Of a stretch of 64,000 nt of DNA, positions 46,100 to 64,000 are shown one piece after another. Positions within the stretch are counted from its first letter, which is position 1. Every line of letters starts with the position of its first letter. The notes beneath the pieces were generated by a model. That model was not told the origin of the DNA. It worked only from the letters and a program-made list of their open reading frames with translations, and made no database searches. Source of the stretch: Polytrichum commune (Eukaryota > Streptophyta > Polytrichopsida > Polytrichales > Polytrichaceae); contig OX485808.1 in assembly GCA_950295325.1 (NCBI GenBank), positions 17,690,527 to 17,754,526 on the forward strand. The letters are read 5' to 3'. The position numbers and the translations under genes are program-made.

Positions 46100-47860
46100 A
46101 CTCTTCCCCCAATTAGATTCCGAATTAGAGCCCCACCCTTGAATTTCCACCTCCTAGACCAATGCAAGCTAGGCTCCTATTCTCCATTAATTTGGCTCAC
46201 CGCTGGTTGAATTCGGTTCTTTCCCTGTTCGGCTTGGCCATGCCACAATTTCCCGAATTGATGCCTCCTCTGGCACTGCCATGCGGTGATGATCCATTCC
46301 TGATGCTTCGGCCAGCACCAGTAGGCAGGCCCTTAACCCCAACTCCTCACTTACTATCAAATCCCACTCAGCCACCCAGCCTGCCTTACTGAATTCCACC
46401 GAGTTGGCTAGTTGCCGGCAGTGACTTCACTCTCGTCGTTGCAGGCAGACCATGAGCCTCTCAGTCACTACCTGAATTCCAGCTCCCCCTGGCAACTGCA
46501 GTCGCCGAACTGGTTCGGGACCCACTAATTCATTGTGTATGTCTCATCTTTTTGGGGATCAGGGGCCTGAACCCTCGGAATCTCGCTCTCTGTTCTTACT
46601 TATTCAACATTACTTCAACTGGTTAGCAACTTGCACCTTCAATCTCGAAATGCTTCACATTATGAGCTGGAGTTCCCCTTACTTTGCCTCCTGCCACATT
46701 ACCATGTGCTCGCCACCACCTGGTCATCCGCCCAATTTGTGCATACAATCCAATGCTGAGTGATTCTCCTTCATATGCCCTAGCGCTGGATTCCACCTTA
46801 TCAGCGCCTCAACAGGTGAGGTCTGAGGTCGGAATGTGAATGTGCCTCAGATCATTTCGCACCTGCCCTGGTTCTTGCTGGGAGGCAGCCCTCCCTCCTC
46901 TCTCGGCTCATTACTGGCAGCCGCATCTAGATTTTATCACCCTGGGTTCGCCGTCTTGCACCAGGACTAGCTCTCTCAAGCTGGCATTGCGAGACCCCCT
47001 GTCACCCATGTTCGCAACCTCCCTTCCTCCAACAAGCCGAGGCGGCCTCAGTGCTAAGGCCGTTGCCTCATCCTTTCTCCTCCCTCGCCCTTTTTCGGCA
47101 CAGATCCGCCGCTTCCTACGAGCTCCCGCTTCAGGGAGAGAGAGAGAGAGAAAAAAAAACTCTCTCCAAAGCTCAAAACCCCCTCCCTGGATCCTAGAAT
47201 CCAGCTCCTAATCTGAAAATGTGGAGGACCCCCCCCCCCCCCCTCTTTCCTAAAACAACCTACACACCTGCCCTAAACGACCAATTATCATTGGCCTAAA
47301 CCCCTCCAAGCCTAGCATCACTCCAACTTTAACTAAACCACTTCGTTCATTTTTACTATCTTTCTTTTAATAACTCAAGTTCACAATTAATCCAACAATT
47401 CCACTTAACACATAACACACTTAACTAAATCCAAACTCTTGTACTCTTTAACTACTCACACAACACAATTCCTAAGTTTTAATACTTTTAATGGTTAAGA
47501 AGACATGTGGGCACGAAATCGGGCTCACATTGTGCAACTGGGATATATGATAATTTGTTAGGTTTTGGCTTGACATGTGTTCTGAGTACCGTTGCAATCA
47601 ACTCAGTGTTTTCACGCTCGAGCTGCAAATATGCAAAATCCAGAGCCCACTGAAAAATTAATGAGGAACAAAAATTTGATTCACGAACTAAATTTTGATC
47701 GTTGTTCTAGACTAATAAACATTACCAGTCAGCATTTTCACAATTTAATTCACCTAGACTGATATCATGCAGTTTTTTTACCTGGAGATTTTGCTGGCGT
47801 GCTTGTTGCAGTAGAGCTCCATTGCTAGTACTGTATCTCTCTCTTGTGATCACGGTGTTT
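46100..47860. other. C/T-rich, locally GC-rich stretch without a recognised gene
   Basis: 46100-47220 is markedly richer in C and T than its surroundings and gives Pro/Ser/Leu-rich frames on both strands, none with a known domain. A GA tract with an A-run (about 47136-47159) and a C-run (about 47229-47243) follow. It could be a decayed transposon or gene body. The part from 47245 to 47860 is AT-rich and leads into the hAT pseudogene. Confidence 0.4.
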
Positions 47861-47921: not shown

Positions 47922-50472
47922 ATGGCGTCCAGTTCACGTAGAGATCCTGGACGTCCACCTCAGGATGCTCGCCAATTAGACTTGAATTTTTGTTTTGGTG
48001 AATCTAGACTGATCAGTACTGAGGACGGAGACTCGAATATGGATGATGCGGTTGATGGTGAACATGGAACACCGGATTCTAGTGAAGTCACTATGCTACA
48101 AAACCCACCCAAGGTTCTCTTACGCAAATTCAACAGCAAGTGGAAGATTGGAGGTCGATGGTTGTACTGGTCAAAGCCTCATGGTGGACCGATCGTTGGA
48201 GTGATGAAGTGTGAAGCGTGTGAGAAATTCAAACTTGGAGGAATAGGTTCACGAACATGGTGCGGGAGCGGGTGTTTAACGCTTCAGCTCTCAGCAGTCA
48301 AACAACATGAGAAGTCCGATGATCACAAGTGGAGTTGTCAACGGTGGCTTGCGAAGCACCATCCATCAAGCAAGGGACATGTGGCGCCCATTGAGTCTGG
48401 CCTCCAAACAATGGTGGACCGTGAGAAAGGAAGAATTCTCGCAGTTATGAAGCTCTTGTATTTTGTTGTCAGCAACGATCAGCCATTACTTGCTTACACG
48501 GGGAGGTCACTTCATTGTCAAGTTGACACCACGTGCGGACAAAGTTTGCTACCCCTATATTACATGCCATATATAATTTTAAAATTTATGATATTTTTTC
48601 TACATATACATAACCATTGATAGTATCTTTTGTATACCTTTTTGGAAATTTTAGTCATCTTTATTTTTTTTAGTAATTGTTTTAGTTCAATTCTGTGTCA
48701 TTCTAGTTAGAAATGGTATGTTTTATGAAAAAAACAAATCATCAAATTTAGTTACCACTTTTAACTATGTCATAGGTACTGTGTATATCTACTCATGAAA
48801 AAAATTTGATAAAATTTTGACCCATTTTGGTGGTGCAGCTTACCAAAAGAAGATATTTTTTGGTCGCACGTGGTGTTCAACTTGACAATGGAGTGATCTA
48901 CCCGTGCTTGCTTACGTTGATCAGTGCAAAATTCACATGCATCTGGCTACTCCCAACATGCCATCTTCTTTTGAGTACTCATCGTATGCAAATCTAACCT
49001 CAACAATGGGGTTCTTGGATGCAATATCTCAGAATTTATATTTGAGCTTTATTGAGGAAGTCAAAAGCAGCCCAGTTTATTCAATATTGATTGATGAGTC
49101 AACTAATCGAACATGTGAACCACATCTTATTGTATATGTTTGCTACTTGACGGGTGTTGGTTTTGGTTCAACGTGTGTGTAGTTCGTAGAACTGATGCCT
49201 CTATCACGAGGAACTGGGGAAGTCATGTTCCAATCCATTAAAAAATTAGTAGAAAGATTTGGGTTCGATCTTCTGAAGCTGGTGGCCATAGCTACAGATG
49301 GAGCGGCGTACATGACTGGTGTGCATCAAAGAATGGTGGCCCAACTTCGAGATCTAGTACCCCATCTGGTTGGAGCACACTGCATAGCTTACCGAGAGGC
49401 TCTAGCTGCGAAGGACGCTAATGACGAATTTCCATGCCTTGGATTCATTGACCAAGTTGCCAATAAAGTGTATGAGTGGTTGGGACAATCGGTGATTCGG
49501 CGAGGCACGTTGGCAAAATTGTTACTTGCATTTCGCGAAGAGACCCGAGTGGTTTTGCAGGTTCATTCCGTATGGTGGCTATCACGCGGCATGGTCATGG
49601 AGAGGATGGTTTTTGTATGCTTGCAATTTTGGAGTCATAGCAAGCTGAAAAACACGCATGATGCACAAATATCACCTCTCTGCAGTTCCAATTCTTCATC
49701 CATCTGTTGGTTGATGTGCTACTTGAGTTGAACATGCTCAATCGGAAATTTCAGTTTGATCTTGTAGATATCACATCCATAGCCTCTACTATCGATGTGA
49801 CAATCAATTTGTTGGGGAGACACTATTTGGATGTGAGTTTGGCACAACAACCAAACATTTGGGAATTTTTTTGCGCAACGTGGTGCCAACTGGAGAGATC
49901 TTGTATGTTGATAGATTTGGTTGTGAGAAAGTGCATACTTTGCACTATGACTCTATGTCCGGGTGTGATGTAGGGGGCTCGTTGGAGGATTGCATCACCC
50001 TTGGTAGACTATACGTCCAAAAGGTTATTGACTCACTAAATGATCGCTTCCCCGACTTGCCCATTTTTTATGCGGCCAGACTTTTCAGCCCAAAACACTA
50101 TCCCATGGATGCATTGGATCGAGGCACTTTAACTAAGCAATGGTTGCACCGGTTGGTGACACATTTCAAGTGGAGCTCTCTGTTCTTGTTGATCAAGCCA
50201 ATGCGGAGTTGCTCGAATTTGTGGAGATGTTATCTTCACCTTGTCAACACCAAAGTATGCATGAAGATTGGGTTTTTTGTGGCCGTGACCGAGAGTTTAA
50301 GATCAATTGGCCAACCCTAATGTTGCTATGGCAAGCCATACTTGTGATCCCTACTAGCGCTGTTGTTTGTAAGCGTGGTTTTTCAAAGCATAATTGGGTT
50401 AAAAGCAAAAGGAGAACATGCCTAAACCTTGACACACTTGAAACATTATATTCGTTAATCGGAGACTTTTGA
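47922..50472 (+). pseudogene. hAT transposase pseudogene (ZNF862/KIAA1586-like), disrupted
   Basis: The ATG at 47922 opens a frame with an N-terminal zinc-finger-like part: CEACEKFKLGG, a Cys-rich loop, then VKQHEKSDDHK. After a MITE insertion (48497-48906) the same protein continues with the RNase H-like core: SILIDESTN, VAIATDGAAYMTGVHQRM and VGAHCIAYREALA. It then reads VHSVWWLSRGMVMERMV, NRKFQFDLVDITSIA and a C-terminal dimerisation segment (LWQAILVIPTSAVVCKRGFS, KHNWVKSKRRTCLNLDTLET). The TDGA, CIAHRE-like and dimerisation motifs are those of hAT transposases. It is dead: an in-frame TAG at 49180-49182, a frame change near 49.6-49.7 kb, another near 49.86 kb and another near 50.14-50.3 kb. 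It ends 372 bp from the tail of the opposite-strand gene. Confidence 0.92.
48497..48906. mobile_element. hAT-type MITE inserted in the transposase gene (410 bp)
   Basis: The left end reads CACGGGGAGGTCACTTCATT and the right end AATGGAGTGATCTACCCGTG. The inverted match extends through GTCAAGTTGA(A)CACCACGTGCG. An exact 8-bp duplication, CTTGCTTA, lies at 48489-48496 and 48907-48914. Deleting the insert and one duplication restores the host reading frame across the junction (QPLLAY then VDQCK). The ends match the family at 7976-10086 and 18669-19115. The interior is AT-rich and non-coding. Confidence 0.95.
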
Positions 50473-50843
50473 AAGTCTCAAAATAAAATATGCCCATAGT
50501 TTGGGATGCCAATATTGTGGGCATACGGAATATTGGGAACATCAAGAACATGACGATTTAAATATTCGCACGTAAAGCATATTCTTATTACTAAAAATAG
50601 AGAATTTGTATTAAAATGAAAAAGTGAGTTCCATGTGGAAAATAACAATCGACTCTAAAAAATAAATGGTTTATGTCATTATAGAGTTTGGGGTGCGCAT
50701 CCCATAAGTAAGGCTCTTATGAATTTGGATGGCACATCCCAAACGTATACCACAATGGAATGTGACAAGTCCACTAAATCTATTAAAAACCAAGTCTACT
50801 AAGCGTCCATGTTTTTCGCCATTAACTCCCACCTATGTTATGT

Positions 50844-53800
50844 TTACACATCTCCATCTTCCGCTTCATATCCATTCTCGGCGTCATTTTCTGCCGCTGC
50901 AATACGTGCCAAGTTGTCTTTGGCAAAATCTATATGTTTTTGGGGGATGGTCATTGTTTCTGTTTTGGAACCTTTACGCGGCTTCCAAGCACAAAGTATA
51001 GTGTCCGTGTTTATCCAAACCGGTGTGTACGCTGAGTCCATTGTCCACTTAAAATTCTTTTTGGTGTCCCAACCTAAATAAGTGCGTAGCACGTTTTGGT
51101 CTTTAGTGCTTGGACGACAATATTCCACCTCAATTTGACGAAAATTGGGGCTAGTTCGAACAAAATTGGGTGAAGACAATGCTTTCACGAACCAAATTGG
51201 CTTGGGATGTTCATCATCCCCTGCTCGTACAAGGACCAAATAACCTTCATGGCAATCAACACCTACACGAAACGACGGTGCCGGTCGATTGCGGGCAGGG
51301 CCAACGTAATGCTCGTCCATTGCGAACTCTTCACGAACGTCTCCATTGCTAAAAGACATGGTGTCTGACTCGACAACCGTTAAACGGCTTTGTGGCCAAA
51401 ATCCTTGTGTTAAAGTTGTACAGGTGTTGCCACCAAGTGTCATTAGGGCCGAGCGAATGCGATCCCAATACGCAATCAAAGGTTCATGAGTATCTCTAAC
51501 ACGTCTAGTGATGTCCTCCTCACACAACTCTTTCCAATATTCAATGAATCCGGATATGCCTTTGATGATTTCCGGCCCATTCCTCATGGGGTCGGGTTTG
51601 CAAGGCTTTGGATCCCCATCCGGAAGCAAACATTTGCCATCATTGTCTTGACGCCATACGAGTATACCATCATCCGAGGCCCCAATTAGGAGATGTGCAC
51701 AAAAGCTTGAATTGCATGGTCGGGAGACCATCATCCCTTATATAGAATCGGAATTGTTGTGCTTTGGTATGCCCCACCAAACGGTCCCCTCCCTTCAACA
51801 TGTATGGCTTGATGAAGGCCTTGAAATCTGGTACTTCCTCAATCAAGTGCGGAATTACTGGCATATGGTCCAAATCCATATACGATTTCATAAGAAGAGG
51901 TATGGTTGGAAAATCTTCTTCATGCAACTTCATGCTCCACCGTCCGAATGATGCATCAATGTCGTCGTGTGTATGTCCCACCATCAAGAAAGACACAAAC
52001 ACCTCCTTGAAGATTCCTTTCGCCACGAGCAATGACCAAAAACAAAATACGTATCGACATTTGTTGTCCTTCACACAATTATCAATTGAACGTGGAAAGA
52101 TGGAGGCAATGGTTTTGCACAAATGGGTTCTCCGGGTGGTTCTGGCAATGACGACATACAAACCTCCTTCCCCGCAAGCACTACCTCATAAAGGGATGTG
52201 GTTCCACAACCATCAAAAAGTGCACGGGAAGAATGTACCGGTGGCTTCTCAAGATCGCGCAAGAGTTTTGCAAATGAACCCACCGTGTGGTTAGCATCCC
52301 CAGGGTAAAAATCCAAACCATAATGGGCATACTTTACGTCCCCATGGCCGTGGGCAATCATACCTGGAAAAAACAAACGATGCGTGACCAAAATAATCAA
52401 ATAACCACTAAACGGATGTATGGAGTTGGACATTTGCCAAACACACCCAAGAAAATTGGATAGACTTTAAACACGTAGTTGTGATTTCATACAAACCTGT
52501 GACAGCTACGGGCAACTTGAAGAGACCATCCGTGGCCTTTATTTTGCGTGCATAACAAGGGTATGCGGTTTTGGCGTGGTCCATTTTATCATGGATGACT
52601 GTTAGAACCTCTGTGGGCCTCATTATGGATAGAGCACAATTCTTATAGTAATCTTGACGGTGTGCCTCTTGATTGTTGACATACTCAATATATTTTTTCT
52701 GGTGTCTGGAATGAGATTCAGTGCCTATGGGGTGGGCGTCTCGAAGACCTTTGTATTTTTCACACGTCGTACACCTTGCGAACTTGTCCCCGGGTCTTTT
52801 CAGAATGTATTCCGCAAACTGCTGGTTTTTAATCACACTCAACTTGGACAAAGAAATGGGCCCACATCCCGCTATGTGACCCACTTCATTGATGTCCGTT
52901 AAGATGTTCTTCCATTTTGTGCCCGTGGGCAACACCATTTGAACAACCTTCTCCCCTGACGACAATGTCCTCGTCTTGTGGGGCATTGCATCAGCCAATG
53001 GCACTATGATGGTGGATAGTGTCGCGGACGCTTGCAGTGTAGCCTCCCTAGGTTTCTTTGTGCCCGAGTTGCCATGAAATCGAGAGCGGCGACCCAACAA
53101 TGAATACTTTCGAAACCTATAAAAGTCAGCCTTGGAGACGGCGTGGATGGTATACCACGCTGTACAACACACATCAACGTTCTCAAGTGTCACCACCTTA
53201 TGCCCATGTGTATCAAGGTGCAAATTTCTGTGGACCTCGAGTTTCTTAGCCGATCTCATACGAAAATCCGCAAGCCACATCTCTTGACGCAGAGACCTAA
53301 TTTTCTCCCGCGGGAAAAATTGGCAACATTTCCTCGCGCAACAATCCTTGCCGGACACTAGACGGATAGATTCGTCCCCCAAAAGCCAATCCCGTCGACG
53401 CTCCTTATCTCCGCGAGGCACACGGTTTGAATCATATCTACGGAGGCCTTTGCGAGGACGTGTTTTGGCCAACAAAGCTAATTGTGTTTGCTTATGCCGC
53501 TGCTCATGATCCCACAAACTCACTTCCTCATGTAGAACTTGACGAAGCGGCCATCGACGCAAGGAAAATCTCCATGTCACTGGGACCTCTAGCAGAAGCA
53601 AAGAGTTCAAGATGCACACGCCAACATCATCGAGACCTAGGGCGTTGGCATCAACACAATCACGGGGATTGGAGTTTCTACATATGCCATCTGCCACGGG
53701 GACACCAACCTCGTTGAGTAGAACGACATCAAGGCCAACCCATTGCTCCCTCCCGAAACCGGCACACAACGGAATGTCATCGTGGTCATCTCCGGAATGC

Positions 53801-53973
53801 AGAGATTGTTCGTGGACTTCCAAAGATTCATGGGAGGATGTATCTACAAACACCCCCCTCACGTTTGGCACACCATTACTATCTGCCGACGGGGAAGACA
53901 CTTCACATTCAGCATCGGATGACGATGCATACGTCGACAACTCCAATGAACTATCACCCACATGCAACGCCAT
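50844..53973 (-). pseudogene. DUF7869-type transposase-like gene, two exons, two frameshifts
   Basis: Start ATG at 53973 (MALHVGDSS). Exon 1 runs to 52497, the intron is 52496-52364 (GTTTGT...TTTTTTCCAG, 133 bp), and the frame resumes as GMIAHGHGD. Visible motifs: a Cys cluster KDCCARKCCQFF (about residues 209-220), CTTC (401-404), IHDKMDHAKT (460-469), QL(D)NCVKDNKCRYV and MVGHTHDDIDASFGRW. This order is typical of a large family found near or within eukaryotic transposable elements. The spaced acidic residues suggest, but do not prove, a DDE-like nuclease. A base is missing near 52081-52086 (CAATTGATAAT where CAATTGGATAAT would keep frame), and a second shift lies near 51680. The C-terminal part (51734-50844) ends in an acidic tail. 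Confidence 0.8.
52364..52496 (-). other. Intron of the DUF7869-type gene
   Basis: On the minus strand the donor is ACAG|GTTTGT and the acceptor TTTTTTCCAG|GTATGA. Splicing gives GTCACAGGTATGATT (VTGMI), keeping the family's typical transition between the two motif blocks. Confidence 0.75.
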
Positions 53974-54189
53974 ACCACCTAGACCAACGACCAGGAAATG
54001 ATCAACCCAACCACCACCGCAATGCATACAAGAGAGGATAGAATATATGTGGAGATACATGGCCCAAAATTGACAAACAAACTTTGGTGCACCATTGGAG
54101 AACCTCACGCACAAAGACGAACGCGCGTCCCAAAAAAACGTTTTAAGCATACGTCTAGGAGCCTCACTAATGTAAACAATACATGGACA

Positions 54190-54640
54190 AAGAGGAGAAC
54201 AATCGTTAGTCGTCCAGGAGGGCCCTGCTGTTCGGACCAGCGCCTGTCCCCATACAACCGACGACGAAATCACAAATCCGAGAACGCCACATGCATTTAC
54301 GAACGCGCGTTCGTGACCTCAGTAACTTCTCCATGTGCATCCGGCGGCCTTCGAGATCCCTCATCTGAGAGCACCCTCAAGAATATCGGTTTTGTAGGTC
54401 AAAGTACCATGTTGACTTAGGAACCTGCGCGATATATTATCACAAGAGAACACTTGTCCATACGTACAAAACTAGTAAATCTGAAGATGATGCCTGAATC
54501 AAGTCCAACAATATTTTGAACACTGAGCACCTTCATATTGTGAATTTGATTATGTTGACTTTTGCTTACCTACCCATTCACGAACGGACGTTCGTAAATG
54601 GGTGCGACCCCGTGTTCACATCCTTCACGGACGAGCGATG
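54190..54640 (+). repeat. Diverged copy of the 3' end of the ParB-like gene
   Basis: This segment is colinear with 63446-63910. Matching blocks: CAGGAGGGCCCTGCTGTTCG / GAGGAGGGACCTGCTGCTCG; TTTTGTAGG followed by CTTAGGAA and TATCAC; and TTCACGAACG...GGGTGCGACCCC. Translated, QEGPAVRTSACPHTTDDEI matches the last residues of the gene, EEGPAARSSAASPPPDDEV. Homology stops abruptly near 54190, about 220 bp upstream of the DUF7869-type start codon. It is a truncated second copy. Confidence 0.8.
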
Positions 54641-55368
54641 AGCATATTTTTCTTGCTATTCTGTGTTCGTATATAACTGCCATACTGATGTGTATAAATG
54701 AAGATGTGTTGCTGGATGCGTAGACAATAATGACATGTATTTACGAACGCACGTTCGTAAATTCCCGATCATCAGGTACCAATAGATACGGGTCAAATAA
54801 GTATGTATGATCCTCGAAGGCATATTTACGAACGCACGTTCGTAAATGACTGTCATGGATTATGTGCATGTGACTAACCATATGAGTAGCTCAATCCAGA
54901 ACATGCTCTCATGTGGGATTTACGAACGCACGTTCGTAAATTACCGACCATCAGGTACCAATAGACACAGGTCAAATATGTATGTATGAACCTCGAAGGC
55001 ATATTTACGAACGCACGTTCGTAAATAAATGCCATGGATGATGTGCATGTGACTATCCATGAGTAGCTCAATCCAAAACATGCTCTCCTGTGGGATTTAC
55101 GAACGCACGTTCGTAAATTACCGACCATCAGGTACCAATAGATACGGGTCAAATATGTATGTATGATCCTCGAAGGCATATTTACGAACGCACGTTCGTA
55201 AATAATTGCCATGGATTATGTGCATGTGACTATCCATGAGTAGCTCAATCCAGAACATGCTCTCATGTGGGATTTACGAACGCACGTTCGTAAATCCTTG
55301 CCATGTACAGGTCCGAATCATTTGTCTAAACCTGAAGCTCCTCATCTTTACGAACGTGCGTTCGTAAA
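54296..55368. repeat. Left cluster of TTACGAACGNNCGTTCGTAA palindromes (10 sites)
   Basis: Full or nearly full sites begin at 54296, 54577, 54740, 54825, 54919, 55004, 55096, 55181, 55273 and 55347; a decayed one is at about 54623-54640. The arms are TTTACGAACG and CGTTCGTAAA. The two central bases vary (CG, GA, CA x7, TG). CA/TG centres are imperfect and CG is self-complementary. Each site retains four to five CpG dinucleotides. Confidence 0.95.
54735..55297. repeat. 177-bp tandem array carrying two palindromes per unit
   Basis: Units start near 54735, 54915, 55092 and 55269 (the last partial). Spacing is 177 bp between the last three and 2-3 bp more for the first. Each has a palindrome, then ACCGACCATCAGGTACCAAT, then a second palindrome 85 bp after the first, then GATTATGTGCATGTGACTA and CATGCTCTCATGTGGG. 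Units are highly similar, and the palindromes are identical (CA centre) in all. Confidence 0.93.
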
Positions 55369-55639: not shown

Positions 55640-56926
55640 ATAAATAACACTGTCATGTATGGAACATGCCTTGCATGCACGCCAAAATATTGAAAATATA
55701 TAAATCGGTTGCACACCTTAGTTGTGACCAAGGTCTCATCGAAATATACGTATATACATATATATATCTATATCTATATATACACATAATGTCTAAATAT
55801 GGAGATGGTTAACATTGAATATTTAATGATTTGCGACTAAGGTATGAAGTCCAAGTTAATTGACAATTAATGCCTAATAAAGTTATGAATGTCTAAGTCA
55901 TAGATATATATATATATATAGCTATACACATATACACACACACACACAATGAGGTCAGAGTGGCTAAGAACATGTTGCGGACGCCCCTAAAATTATAGGT
56001 ATCATATGTTTCACATCAAAAAATGACCGTAATATGGTCACCAAGTGCATGAATACAATTAAAAAATCGGGTTAATCCATAATGGCTTGCACTAGGGTAG
56101 ATTGAGGACATTATGAACTAATTATACCTAATAATATATGTAAGTTAGGTCTTCTTTCAAATGGTATCTAGGTGTGAAAATAAGGAATTAAAATGGCATG
56201 AGTAGGAAGGATTAATCAATTTGTAATGCTGCATAGTATGATAGCGTAATGATCATTGAGACTTGAAACCATACTAGCTACCGTAACGTTGAATCATAGT
56301 TACAATTATTATGTGTTTGACATCCTATTGGAAATTGAATTTTCCTCCACTTGTTGTAAGGGTACGGATACACATTGGTTAAATGTTTATTAGATCATTG
56401 GTGATATTTATAGTTGAATGCATTGTTCGATTGTTAGTTTAAGTTGACACATGATTAAATGAGTTGAGGTCCTATTGGAAATAGACTTTTAGGGTTTGGG
56501 GAAATGCACTATTAATTTGGAATGGTGCATACAATAGTATGTACTTACAATTAATATATGTTTTGCATCCTATGAGAAGGATGTGCATCATCATAGCTTA
56601 AAGTGTTGATATAAATTGAAGTCTTAAGACATGCATGTTATTATAATAAGATCGTGGATTGTGTGATGAAATTTTACTCAGAACTATTAAGGTGAAAGAG
56701 GGAATATTTGAAATTTCACTTATCACCTAAACCAAAGTTTTATCTCAAATCTATTAATTTGGAATGTGAAAATGACAATTGGCATCATTATCAATTATTA
56801 TAGTTGTTATGAACGGAATTAAGCATTCTCCATCCAACCAACATTGGTAGATCAATTTGACCTGCCCTCAGACAACAACATGGCCACATATAAGAAAGGT
56901 TGGTAAGATAAAAAGATGCAGGGATG
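55640..56926. other. AT-rich gap without palindromes or genes
   Basis: It holds TATA-rich microsatellites (about 55748-55785 and 55903-55922) and a CA tract (about 55931-55948). No palindrome of the flanking type occurs between 55.37 and 58.57 kb, so this block separates the two clusters. No gene is supportable. Confidence 0.6.
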
Positions 56927-56996
56927 TAGGGTTTAGGGTTTGCGGTTAGGGTTTAGGGTTAGGATTTGGGGGTAGGGTTTAGGGGTTTAGGGTTTG
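56927..56996. repeat. Interstitial telomere-like TTTAGGG repeats
   Basis: Imperfect TTTAGGG/TTAGGG heptamers over 70 bp (TAGGGTTTAGGGTTTGCGG and so on). This is the plant-type telomere motif and the best lineage marker in the window. It is too short and degenerate for a chromosome end. Confidence 0.85.
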
Positions 56997-58545: not shown

Positions 58546-59186
58546 GTACGGACATGGGATCCCAAAACCATCACATTTACGAACGCTCGTTCGTAAATGG
58601 ACATACACTGCATACCGAACCTCCATTTACGAACGTGCGTTCGTAAATACGCACTCCACGTTCATTGGAATGCTCTATATTTACGAACGCACGTTCGTAA
58701 ATATACGCCACATATCACTCAGATGGAACCTTAACTTTAATATGAACCTATCCGAATATCTAAAGAACAAATATAAAATTGCGAACACCAATAAAACAAC
58801 TCACATGTACTTACGAAAACTAAATCAACCAAATGTCCGAAAAGATAGACCAAATGGAAATACTTACGAACGCACGTTCGTAAACAAAATCAAATCTAGA
58901 AAACCTATATCTTTTACGAACGATCGTTCGTAAAAATAACCAAATATATTGCAAATACATTCATGACGAGTAGTCTATTTGATCTTACTATCGTTTACGA
59001 ACGCTCGTTCGTAAACTCAATACTAAAAATTTATATTATCTTGCAACCCCTCATTTACGAACGAACGTTCGTAAATATAATTACATCAATTGCAAAGACG
59101 CATTAACACTGCTTAATATGTGGGATATGCATGTCATTTACGAACGTTCGTTCGTAAAGTCACTAATTATTTATATTCTGTTGCAG

Positions 59187-62100
59187 ATGGCAAGATCAAG
59201 CAGAAGCGCCATTGAGATGTTCGAGGTGAAGGTCGATCGCCTCCCAGAGTCGGTGTTAGACGACAACGGCAACGACAACTATGTCCCCAAGAAAGACTTC
59301 ATGGGGGAGTGGACGGCACTGCCAGAGAAGATCGGGGACGGCCTCTTCTGCATGCGCTTCACCTACGAGCTGGAGACCAGATCGGACCAGCCTGAACAGT
59401 GGGTTCAAATGAAGACGTGGGAGATAGAGTCCATAGAGGCCTAGGGGGAGTATGTAATTCTGGACATGAAGAACAAGAAGGATCATATCAACCTCTTGTT
59501 GCATTTCCAGAAACATACCTTCTCCTACCAATACGCCACTAATAACGTAGTGGAAGATGCCAAACACTTCGACCTGGACGCACTCTTCTCGAAGTATGCC
59601 TTGAGCCCATACTGGACGGCAAGGAAATTGACAGCCCTCGCCTTGAACATCTCGAAGTACAACAGTGTGGTCACCGAGGCCAACAAGAAAAAGAAGAGCC
59701 CCAGGAAACCATCCACATCAGGGGCAGGAGGATCAAGAAGTGCACCCAAGCATGTGCCTTCCGCGAGTAGGTTGACGGAGGGCCCCAGCAGGCACTCCAC
59801 GCCATCCAAGAGGACAAGGGAAGAGATGGAGAAATCGGTAGTCACAGATATCGCAGAGGTGAGCTCGCCGGTATTGATGCCTACCCCCTTGAAAAAGGGC
59901 GAGAACCCAGACGCTGTGAAGGCCACCAGAATCCTTCGAGACTTCAACAACTACTCGAAGGATTGCTGGCCCATGGGACGCCACTTCACATTCAACGTGG
60001 ACTGCTTCAAGTGCGAGAAGTCCCCCAACAAGTGGGTGGTTCGGTCTCGCGAGAGCGGTGGTGTGAAGTGGCAGATCAACAATCTCATGAACAACGTCAA
60101 GTGGGATAGGCAGACCGTCTGCGTCATGCCGAAGGGGCTGACATCCCGTCCGACGGAGAAGGACCGGCCACGGATCCAGAATGGGGAGTTCTGGATCATA
60201 GACGGCCAACACAGCTTGGAGGCGTCCCAGATAATCCTCAAGGACGACAACTTCCAGCACGAGCTGAAGGCAGATTTGCGCTACTGGAAGGCGTTCCTGG
60301 TGTGGTCGGACGACTGGGACAAGCTGCGGAAGATTTCCACCTTCCTCAACTCCGGCAACAAGATCAAGGCATTCGAGGCGTCGTGGGCTGCCAACATAGT
60401 GGCTGCAAGAGACGTCTGGGTCGCCCACGGGTGCCCCCCCAAGGAAAGGGAGAATGCCAAGACCCCGTCTCCCCAATGGAAGGTGAGTTTACGAACGAAC
60501 GTTCGTAAAGTTGGGCGCATTTCTAGTTCTTTTACATTCAAATTTACGAACGTGCGTTCGTATTGTGTGCATCACTGACTTTTGTTTTTCTCTTCAGGCT
60601 TTTTGCGATGCGATGGTGGACAAGTTCTCCTCCATCGATATGAAGTCCACAACAACCAAGTCTGTCCTGGAGCTCAAGGGCGAGCTCCGCCTCATCTGCT
60701 GCAATAGGGACAGTTGGGACTTGTGGACCCAGTTTTTTGATGCACACAGCTCGGGAGATCTTGTCAACCCCGACACCGAGGAAAAGTATAGCGCAGAAAA
60801 GACCGGGGAGGCCCCTCCACTGCTAAGGGAGTTCTTTAGGTCCCTTCAAGGGTTGACGGAGTCCGAGTTGCAGAGGTGCGCGGTGCATCTTCTTGGGAAC
60901 ACAGTGGGTAGAACCATACCCTACCCCAAGATATTTTTGAGGAGGCCAAGGCACAAGCCCGGCACGTATTCCATAAAGGAATGGTGCGACCACCGCAAGA
61001 TGAAGACGGCGGCAATGAGGGAATTGAGCGCCCTCATACCCGAGTACGCCCTCTTCCTGGCCGACGGGGACGTGAGTTGGGCCAGTTGGAAGATGTTGAA
61101 GGTCGAATACAACATCTCGGGAGCCTCAATGCGTTGCCTTGTCAAGGAGCACGCCTCCATTTTGAAGCAGAAGGGGAACAAGAGGACAAAGAAAACCGAG
61201 ACGGATCCCCAGGAGGTGGAGCAATACAAAAGGTTTTTGGCGCGGAAGAGGTTGGCCACATTCGAGGGAGTGACCAGATTTTGTGTGGTGACAGCCGGCG
61301 TAGAGAGAACAACTTTCTCTAAGTGGGACGGCACCATCAGCAGGTCCGAGGTTAGGGAGGACCGATGGGGGTGTCCATTTGCCCTGATCGATTTCAGGGG
61401 GATCCCGGGTACGTCGAGGCAGGGGGGGAAGGACATGCCACTCTACAACCCCTTCATGACTAAGTTCAAGGAGCACAAGTCGCCGGACATGAGGGAGCCT
61501 CACGTTTGGCTGTGGATAGTCGAGCAAGAGAAGCTCTCTGCTGTAGTCGACCTGTACGAGAAGATGATCAAATTCGAGTACAGCATCTTCCACAGCACTT
61601 ACGTGCCCGCCAAGACGGAAGGGATCGTGGCCATCAACGAGGCCAGGGGAAACAAACAGGTGGGGGCGGTCAGCCTCGTCTTCTTGACGTACAACGCGCT
61701 TCGGAATGGGCAAGCCCCTGTCAGGGCGAATACTACGTTCAAGAAGATCTACAGCATCCCCCATCCCCCTCCCAAGGATCTGCTGCAGGAGACCTTGTAC
61801 ACTATCTTCCCGGCGCATGAACTTAGGTTGGAGTTCTACGTTTCCGTGTTGCAAAGCGTGGCAATAAGCGGAGAGACTGTATACAACGTCTGTGGAGGCA
61901 ACAAATTCATGTACGCTGCAATGGTAAGCTCTCCAACTAATATTTACGAACGCTCGTTCGTAAAGTTCACCTCAACTTGTTTGGTTTTCATTAAAACTTG
62001 CATTGTTTCTCGTCGTTGATGTTTACGAACGCACGTTCGTATATTCTAACGTATTTGCTTGGATCTCAGATGCTGGGGCTGGTCGTCAACAGCTTCATTG

Positions 62101-63536
62101 ACGCCATCGACGAGGAGGACTTCCAGGTGCACAGGGCGAAGGCCTCCACGATGGACCTGGAGGACATGTCCCTCCCGAGGACGGACATCAACATGCCCGT
62201 CGACGAGGGCATGCCCGCCATGGAGACGGACGACGACGAGCCCGCGCCCTCCTACAACGTCGAGGCGATCCTCCGATCCTTGGACGTCACGCCTCTGCGA
62301 ATTTTGGGGCCGTCGGGAAACCCATCCAACGTGCAGGGGACTCCGGGTGGATATACGGGGTCGTCCGCGGGGACAACCCAAGATGTCCTCCCCGCGAGAA
62401 TGTCTGGAGCGGAGGCATTCGGCACTCCAGGGGGATGCTCGACATCGGTGTCGCCCAGGCCAGTCGTGGTTCCCAAGATGGAGAACCTCGACCTTCTGGA
62501 CCAACGCTCCCGCCCGTCGTTGGACCACTTCCGCAACACTAGGCGGAAGATGAAGAAGACCCCCTACGTGGAGCTGCCTCCGGGGGCAATCATCGAGGTC
62601 TCCGACGAGGACGAGGGAGATATGGAGATAATGGTCGAGCTGGGGGTCGACTTCGACAAAAACAAGCGGGTCAAAGAGGAGGCCCTCTCCGTCGCCGAGC
62701 TTAACGCCAAGCTCGAGCAGAAGATGAAGGAGGACATGGCGAAGGCTGCTGAGGAGAATGCGAAGAAGATGAAAGCAATTCAGGAGGAGCTAAGGCAATC
62801 CAACGAGAAGACGGGCGCCATCCTCGCCATGCTCAACAAGATGCAGAGCTTCTCAGCGCCCCCCCAGCCGGCTTACCCCTTCCCTGGAGGATACCCATCG
62901 CAATACCCCCCGCAGGGCCAATACCCCCCGCAGGGCCATTTCCCAGGAGGACCATCACACCAATCCGCGCCCCACCCTACGCCTGTTGGGACTCCTCCGC
63001 CCCCAGAGGTTCCCTCGACCACCTCCCACGATGTTGTCGCGGCAGCCATCCAGGAGGACGAGGATTTACGAACGCGCGTTCGTGAATCTTCAGGTCCTCC
63101 AGTCCTCACTCCTCCCCCTTCAAGGGTAGGACTGCCCTCAGACACCGATACGTCGTCTTTCACCGTCGTCCCCAGGGTAGTAGACAGACATGGCAATGAC
63201 TCTGCGCGACACACTGACATGGTCATTGTGGAGGACACGCAGGGGAGCCCCAATGACGCAGCAGGAGAGCAGGGGATGGACGTGGAAGAGACCCCTGCTG
63301 CGTGGATGGAGGATGTCCGGATGGACGCGCTCGACCTGAGCGCGGAGGATGACAGCGTGCTGCGCATCCAGCTGACACAGGCCTCTCAGTCAGCGCGTGA
63401 GGCCGACGCCATGGAAACGGAGGCGGCTGCGGCTGTGGAGGTTACGAACGCGCGTTCGTTAATCGTTGAGGAGGGACCTGCTGCTCGGTCCAGCGCCGCT
63501 TCCCCTCCCCCCGATGACGAGGTAAATCTCCTCTGA
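59187..63536 (+). CDS. Large ParB-like / degenerate methyltransferase protein, three exons
   Basis: Join 59187-60482, 60598-61923 and 62070-63536; all junctions are phase 0, about 1,362 codons. The ATG at 59187 directly follows an acceptor (TTCTGTTGCAG). An in-frame TAG is codon 86 (59442-59444), with homologous-looking frame on both sides; M at 59466 is the next start. Residues about 160-210 are basic and Ser-rich (NKKKKSPRKPS, nuclear-signal-like). Residues 335-347 (EFWIIDGQHSLEA) match the ParB/sulfiredoxin-type motif. In exon 2, LVFLTYN (about 792-798) and, at the exon 2/3 junction, ETVYNVCGGNKFMYAA plus MLGLVVNSFID (about 859-885) resemble motif IV and motif I of beta-class DNA methyltransferases, with DPPY and FGGSGT lost. 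Exon 3 has an acidic stretch, a coiled coil (about 1073-1135), QYPPQG repeats and a disordered tail. GC-rich, unlike its flanks. The ParB call is fairly safe; the methyltransferase call is inference. Confidence 0.75.
60483..60597 (+). other. Intron 1 of the ParB-like gene (115 bp, two palindromes)
   Basis: Donor AAG|GTGAGT and acceptor TTTTTCTCTTCAG|GC, phase 0. One palindrome overlaps the sixth donor base (60488-60509); the other is at 60543-60564. As palindromes they can pair with each other, or fold singly, in the transcript. Confidence 0.85.
61924..62069 (+). other. Intron 2 of the ParB-like gene (146 bp, two palindromes)
   Basis: Donor ATG|GTAAGC and acceptor CTTGGATCTCAG|ATG, phase 0. 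Palindromes lie at 61943-61964 and 62022-62043. As in intron 1, the first is followed by AAAGTT and the second ends CGTAT, so the two introns share a design although the rest differs. Confidence 0.85.
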
Positions 63537-64000
63537 GAATACCATTTTTTACGAACGCTCGTTTGTAACCTCACTAACATCGCGGTGTTTTTCTCTTCAT
63601 CGACACCCCCTGGCTCACGCGAGCCCTCTTCAGCGACCCCCTTAGGGAAGAACAGTTTTGTAGGACACGGCATCATTTTGCCTTAGGAAAATGTGATAGA
63701 CTATCACGTGAGAAATGTAAATATTCAACGGATTAATATATAGACCCATGTTATCTGCATCGCATTTCTTCAAATTCTTTGCCCTCGACCCCTTCTCGTA
63801 TATTGTGGATGTTGATGCGATTATGTTCATTCTTGTGTATCCACCTCATTCACGAACGCTCGTTCGTGAAAGGGTGCGACCCCCTGTCCACCTCCTTCAC
63901 GAACGAGCGCTCGTAAATGTACGTGTAGCCGCGCTCACGAACGAGCGCTCGTAAATGATGCGCACTGCCCCCGCAGCCTTCATTCACGAACGCTCGTTCA
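63537..64000 (+). other. 3' region of the ParB-like gene
   Basis: After the TGA at 63534-63536 come a slightly decayed palindrome (63548-63569, GTTTGT in the right arm), a C/T-rich part (63580-63640), TTTTGTAGG (63656) and four more palindromes from 63849. A donor-like GAG|GTAAAT at 63522 and an acceptor-like CTCTTCAG at 63633 leave open a third intron that would change the last residues. The palindromes continue beyond the window. Confidence 0.6.

Follow-up and report, generated by a model that had tools for sequence, protein, structure and literature searches.

The gene studied here lies at positions 59187-63536 of a 64,000-nucleotide stretch of Polytrichum commune DNA (contig OX485808.1, positions 17,690,527 to 17,754,526; the whole stretch is called the window). 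Rather than standing alone as a partition gene, it is the second gene of a giant DNA transposon that is about 16 kb long and present in many copies. The transposon carries arrays of a 22-bp palindrome, and four further families of elements in the same genome each have a homologous gene (gene 2, or the DGQH gene) together with a palindrome of their own. The strength of our case is this joint change of gene and site across families within one genome. We propose that the gene 2 protein binds the array of its own family as a dimer and controls the expression or silencing of its own copies, a reading that we regard as equally likely to hold or to fail.

The extent of the element followed from blastn comparisons of its copies. 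Two other copies, B and C, are 99.5% identical across 16.1 kb, with 59 differing sites of which 13 are of the CpG type, and then diverge abruptly; the window copy aligns with B from 50442 to 69245, apart from a 2.8-kb insertion. The DNA past the end of the window is numbered as L001, in which a position plus 64000 gives the window numbering. The main parts of the transposon in the window copy are as follows.

50442-69245 (L001:5245), no strand: the DNA transposon, with about 5.2 kb beyond the window, bounded by the target-site duplication TTGA and by blastn against a second copy.
50442-50475, plus strand: left terminal inverted repeat region, AACATTATATTCGTTAATCGGAGACTTTT, found inverted at the right end as AACACTATATTCGGTAATTGGAGA.
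50844-54150, minus strand: DUF7869 (putative transposase) gene region, consisting of the open reading frames (ORFs) 50844-51734 and 52408-54150.

The terminal inverted repeats (TIRs) of the window family read AACACTATATTCG, those of the more distant element H read ATGGGGATATTAAC, and TIRs with 4-bp target-site duplications (TSDs) were present in all seven copies in which both ends were seen (TTGA in the window copy, AGTG in B, ATGT in C, AGAA in F, ATGA in G, GTAT in M and GGTA in H). Minus-strand ORFs of copy B matched PF25273 (DUF7869) with expectation values (E) of 4.6e-19 and 1.5e-14, and no match to PF25273 was obtained when the two ORFs of the window copy were scanned by themselves. From its context and from acidic motifs recognised by eye, we infer that the DUF7869 protein is the transposase. 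Exon 1 of the DGQH gene has at least 150 genomic copies with 93-100% identity (150 scored of 924 candidates). For exon 2, where 96 of 1,166 candidates were scored, the related copies number 96 or more. Copies of the element are dispersed across contigs C1 to C7. With its TIRs, TSDs, transposase gene and dispersed copies, the element has the features of a class II (TIR) transposon, and a selfish element, which was one of the options that an earlier note on this DNA had offered, is what these features describe. Sola1 transposons duplicate 4 bp of their target, as do the elements described here. A target duplication of 4 bp is also given for Sola2 in a passage of PMC3627910, and the table of a review (PMC9033089) lists Sola1 in Physcomitrella.

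Within the window, TTACGAACGNNCGTTCGTAA was matched 28 times with up to three mismatches, and in 100 shuffled sequences the mean was 0.00 and none reached 28. Ten of the sites lie at 54297-55367 and 18 at 58577-63954, with one further site truncated by the window end, which agrees with the roughly 19 plus 10 dyad sites that the earlier note had counted; its DGQHS motif was likewise found in the gene. Most of the palindromes are located in the 5' region and the introns of gene 2, and two are in its coding sequence.

54297-55367, no strand: palindrome cluster 1, ten sites upstream of the transposase.
58577-59157, no strand: palindrome cluster 2, eight sites upstream of the DGQH gene, in a probable 5' intron.
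59187-60482, plus strand: exon 1 of the DGQH (ParB-like) gene, with TAG at codon 86 in the window copy.
60201-60215, plus strand: DGQHS motif, read from the sequence.
60483-60597, plus strand: intron 1, with palindromes at 60489 and 60544, GT-AG ends and in-frame joining.
60598-61923, plus strand: exon 2, a conserved region.
61924-62069, plus strand: intron 2, with palindromes at 61944 and 62023, GT-AG ends and in-frame joining.
62070-63536 (stop), or to 63521 if the donor at 63522 is used, plus strand: exon 3, a low-complexity tail.
63066-63085, plus strand: first palindrome in coding sequence; coding sites also occur in F, G and H.
63442-63461, plus strand: second palindrome in coding sequence; coding sites also occur in F and G.
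63549-63954, no strand: intron 3, with four palindromes, ahead of an FCP1/NIF phosphatase exon that begins beyond the window.

Exon 2 gave no Pfam match above the cut-off. The GT donor at 63522 is in phase with the AG that precedes L001:137, and splicing between the two would attach the phosphatase exon to exon 3. In copy B, the phosphatase exon matches PF03031 (FCP1/NIF phosphatase) with E 2.9e-16. The window copy is damaged, both by the stop codon in exon 1 and by the 2.8-kb insertion (64464-67297, L001:464-3297) in its phosphatase exon. The insertion is probably another transposon because TGTGAGCCC..AAATC is found in inverted orientation at its two ends, and similar end letters occur near window position 47520.

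Relatives of the element were obtained from a genome search with DUF7869, in which 150 of 1,491 candidate loci were scored and from whose listing the regions G, H, K, M, N, O, Q and R were cut; the boundary of H was set with a second copy, and D and F were taken from the lists of window palindromes and of exon 2. Arrays were present in six of the eight DUF7869 loci checked and absent from Q and R. Four site types beyond that of the window were recognised, in elements of 16.6 kb (G), 17.6 kb (M) and 25 kb (H) and in one that is unbounded (K), and each of these families has a homologous DGQH gene with its own palindrome, so the association of gene and array that the earlier note had seen at one locus extends to homologous genes with other palindromes. 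F is a subfamily, with a transposase 91-96% and an exon 1 88% identical to those of the window family, and it has retained the window palindrome (22 exact copies, compared with 25 in the window copy and 23 in B). In M, the transposase is 78-86%, exon 1 41% and the phosphatase 61% identical, and there are 12 exact copies of TACGGACGnnCGTCCGTA, which is one base per half-site off the palindrome of the window. The corresponding values in G are 58-75%, 34% and 43%, and its 37 copies of TTGGGTCGnnCGACCCAA differ from the window palindrome by several bases per half; no window-type palindrome was found in G. Among the window family, M and G, the transposase has thus diverged least, the phosphatase more and exon 1 most. 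H is more distant (transposase 33-53%, phosphatase 36% identical), with the motif HGQHT in an exon 1 that is 26% identical over 141 residues (E 4.7e-8) and with 16 copies of CACGGGTGnnCACCCGTG. O is another copy of the H family and has the H palindrome, the motif part of its exon 1 being unmatched (residues 36-393). In K and its second copy N, the transposase is distant and an ORF with VDGQH adjoins an array of GGTGAGGCAnnTGCCTCACC with a 60-bp period; in N, the continuation of this ORF matches the DGQH region of G (E 3.5e-5).

The site types are family-specific. When exact sites of the five types were counted in ten elements or regions, each type was confined to its own family, the one exception being two window-type sites in M. 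Across the 408-Mb genome, the window palindrome occurs exactly 2,909 times, the G type 9,731, the M type 1,310, the H type 819 and the K type 155 times, and the control of each, the reversed pattern in the case of the window palindrome, was 0. Moreover, a blind search for repeated palindromes found an array in all three newly cut regions of gene-bearing families (M, N and O), and in none of 70 block-shuffled sequences and none of three non-element blocks of the window. In Q and R, of which 18 kb each was cut, nothing matched the DGQH gene at E 1e-3, and neither a listed ORF with the motif nor an array was present; they are weak negatives, as both transposases look decayed and R has an ORF that by eye resembles exon 2. 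In the region L151 (5484-7851), ORFs opposite a decayed DUF7869 transposase were seen that by eye resemble exon 2, with no palindrome array.

The layout of the sites recurs along with the genes. In copy B, the 16-bp core is matched at 31 distinct places when up to two mismatches are allowed. The region upstream of the transposase has ten of these and that upstream of gene 2 has nine; introns 1 and 2 contain two each and intron 3 contains five, while two more fall in the coding sequence of exon 3 and one in the last ORF. A match with three mismatches lies near the start of the transposase. Sites are found at matching places across families, coding sequence included, and in intron 1, where B and G agree, the first site is about ten bases or less from the donor. 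The sites in exon 3 encode EDLRTRVRES and either EVTNARSLIV or DITNARSLTK in B and F, HMFGSSDPNS and AGFGSADPNP in G, and VPHGCSPVGE in H. It is therefore the DNA pattern that recurs and not the peptide, as these peptides are unrelated between families. The geometry of the site is equally regular: all five types have a 2-bp spacer, the 10-2-10 arrangement is clear in four of the five, and the half-sites are fixed around a spacer of which there are 7 to 9 variants in the window family, 9 in G, 2 in M and 3 in H. These features bear on the proposal, which we consider very unlikely, that the arrays are structural and act as hairpins, recombination hot spots or triggers of small RNAs, with no cognate protein. 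Perfect palindromes can form hairpins, and some of the arrays, with periods of 78 bp in G and 60 bp in K, are simple tandem repeats, but fixed half-sites with a variable spacer, as in the window family and G and to a lesser degree in M and H, are the mark of dimer binding, and a 2-bp spacer is common to five different sequences.

The earlier note had suggested checking whether the palindrome and paralogs of the gene occur together in the genome. The palindrome is spread genome-wide but accompanies the gene among the sites looked at. The listed part of the 2,909 sites comprises 86 distinct ones from a single stretch of contig C1. For 60 of them a scored DGQH exon is no more than 20 kb away, and for 58 no more than 10 kb; the remaining 26 belong to D. 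D (L008, C1:639500-649499) is a degenerate relative with 33 window-type palindromes, many of them with CC/GG spacers, in steps of 33 and 93 bp. It retains one TIR and a phosphatase fragment, but nothing that matches the DGQH exon was present in the 10 kb that were cut; D may be a non-autonomous element that has kept its array. In the G type, 38 of 100 listed sites are within 10 kb of a scored G-type exon. Five G-type clusters were without a scored exon; two were tested and three (19 sites) were left out. In both of those tested, the layout of the sites correctly predicted the place of exon 1, whose protein is 73-87% identical to that of G. Small G-type clusters, partly in steps of about 32 bp, were also noticed at C1:438280-478027 with no scored DGQH gene nearby, and these are possibly short non-autonomous elements.

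According to the mechanism that we propose, gene 2 would encode a large regulator made up of the DGQH (ParB/sulfiredoxin-like) region, a conserved region of about 440 residues, a low-complexity tail and, by the predicted splice, an FCP1/NIF-type phosphatase, and the 22-bp palindromes, with two 10-bp half-sites and a free 2-bp spacer, would be the cognate sites of the family. A dimer of the protein would bind the sites at both promoters and throughout gene 2 in every copy of its own family. The bound protein may concentrate the phosphatase there, with RNA polymerase II or silencing and chromatin proteins as its possible targets, and the outcome would be that its own copies are kept expressed or are autoregulated. 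New families might then arise by a joint change of protein and sites, like the VANC proteins and motifs of VANDAL transposons. The recurrence of the DNA pattern and the parallel change fit a protein that reads its own DNA, although they do not prove which protein this is.

Many transposases bind internal repeats, and the palindromes could be binding sites at which the transposase of the element assembles its transposition complex, with gene 2 as a passenger or helper. In each bounded family, one palindrome cluster is indeed located upstream of the transposase, and in H there is a site between two transposase ORFs. However, the outermost 0.6 kb at both ends of the bounded elements listed (window, B, F, M, G and H) contain no exact site, and the sites are dense in the 5' region and introns of gene 2. 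Additionally, the TIRs are nearly alike in the window family, M and G even though their palindromes differ, and the DUF7869 loci with no DGQH match, Q and R, have no array, though both look decayed. We judge this explanation to be unlikely. It is also rather improbable that the gene 2 protein is an autorepressor, or a copy-number control, that would silence gene 2 as well as the transposase with rising copy number. The anatomy does not favour activation over repression, as sites at both promoters and inside gene 2 would serve either, and FCP1-type phosphatases act on RNA polymerase II. Nevertheless, related copies number at least 150 and many of them have long open frames, which points to effective amplification, and sites deep in introns and coding sequence exceed the needs of an operator.

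Several observations weigh against the proposed mechanism. Since arrays are also found upstream of the transposase, they could be bound by the transposase or by a factor of the host, and all of the proteins diverge together to some extent, so the parallel change does not single out gene 2. Among the first 100 sites of the G type, as many as 62 have no scored exon within a distance of 10 kb, the H- and K-type listings contain lone sites, and the coding sites of M were not clearly found, the only matches being those with up to four mismatches. The junction of exon 3 with the phosphatase is predicted from the splice signals. The DGQH region itself gave no match above cut-off in Pfam, NCBIfam or PDB and no confirmed DNA-binding domain. 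A GxxR box (GERR/GQHR) is typical of ParB/sulfiredoxin proteins; its arginine is replaced by S, T or V (GQHS, GQHT or GQHV) in the six aligned rows. Finally, the observed/expected ratio of CpG is 0.91-0.95 in the gene parts and 0.49 in the site-free spacer, the latter like the rest of the window, and CpG content, considered as a sign of escape from silencing, was set aside because no clear sign emerged.

The gene 2 protein can thus be called ParB-like by its motif only. In the six-row alignment, GQH and the following alanine are invariant, as in the DGQHR proteins of phages. The best Pfam match of the region was GmrSD_N (E 0.046, below cut-off), a PHROGs search found nothing under E 0.09, and PF02195 (ParB N-terminal) was not reported at E up to 10, a range in which the HMMER filters drop most matches above 0.1. 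In hhalign, the region scored 94-96% against four phage DGQHR groups and 0.1-3.5% when the motif was masked; against one group the score was 60.7, compared with 42.3-53.9 in 20 shuffles that kept the motif. The likeness of its profile to the phage proteins probably lies in the motif. AlphaFold2 gave no usable model, with a predicted local distance difference test (pLDDT) score of 32.5 for the window segment and of 48.3 when 19 phage DGQHR proteins were added as rows. No relatives were found in viral contigs with either the exon 2 or the DGQH alignment, and a plasmid search returned one weak, unrelated match (E 2). The earlier note had also raised a partition or centromere system of the ParB/parS kind, to which the DGQH motif and the palindrome cluster adjoining the gene could point. 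However, none of the eight ORFs scanned in copy B has a ParA-like match, no PF02195 match was obtained and the copies are dispersed on contigs C1 to C7 as a transposon; this reading is extremely improbable and was rejected.

Two features of the window lie outside these arguments. Directly to the left of the element, 47922-49731 contains what is left of a further transposase-like gene, with a match to the PF25431 zinc finger (E 8.4e-08), and within the site-free spacer of the window copy, at 56920-56990, there is a degenerate run of TTTAGGG-like repeats of the plant telomere type.

If the gene 2 protein does bind its own array, five protein-site pairs in one genome would constitute a natural experiment on how a binding protein and its target change together, transposon self-recognition would extend beyond VANDAL and the DUF7869 transposons would gain a regulatory protein. 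The palindrome arrays would also offer a simple handle for finding such elements, as the sites alone located the exon in two subfamily loci. More tentatively, and as a possibility that we would not yet favour, these elements may form a giant plant transposon superfamily with self/non-self recognition, in which a ParB-like palindrome reader is fused to a phosphatase of the polymerase C-terminal domain type, each family has its own 22-bp address and new families are born by a switch of address; the protein would coat its own copies and act on transcription there, which would be a way of escaping silencing or of controlling copy number. Among the matches listed from the open-access literature of PubMed Central (PMC), there was no description of such a route, and DUF7869 gave no papers.

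Among known systems, bacterial ParB/parS is similar in that its palindromes form clusters about a gene whose protein has a related motif. It differs from the present genes, which belong to transposons and for which neither a ParB match in Pfam nor a GxxR box nor a ParA was seen. The TnpA protein of En/Spm binds subterminal 12-bp repeats and affects methylation and expression; it resembles the proposed system as a second element protein with many copies of a short site, but its sites are subterminal and short and the proteins are unrelated. The only relevant paper on ParB and transposons among the open-access PMC matches listed concerns Sola1-1_Ec32 of Ectocarpus, whose accessory protein is described in passages of PMC12477816 as ParB-like with a DNA methyltransferase; its authors suggest that it binds and modifies the DNA of its own element and refer to comparable proteins of green and red algae. 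As described there, Sola1-1_Ec32 shares with our elements its nature as a giant DNA transposon and a ParB-like accessory gene on the strand opposite to the transposase. However, its protein carries a methyltransferase in the place of the FCP1/NIF phosphatase of the present elements, for which the scan of eight ORFs gave no methyltransferase match, and those passages of the paper do not mention arrays of target sites. In the VANDAL transposons of Arabidopsis, according to passages of PMC5735166, VANC proteins bind family-specific motif arrays and lift silencing. The likeness lies in a transposon accessory protein, in short family-specific motif arrays in non-coding parts, which our elements also have, in the difference of both motif and protein between related families and in a high motif density that is peculiar to the family. 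The same passages describe VANC motifs as 8-9 bases long and in one orientation, whereas the sites here are 22-bp palindromes, and both the type of transposon and the protein are others (DUF7869 and DGQH/phosphatase). The likeness to VANC is proposed for the mode of working only. The present elements differ from both VANDAL and Sola1-1_Ec32 in their phosphatase, their DUF7869 transposase and their palindromes of fixed geometry.

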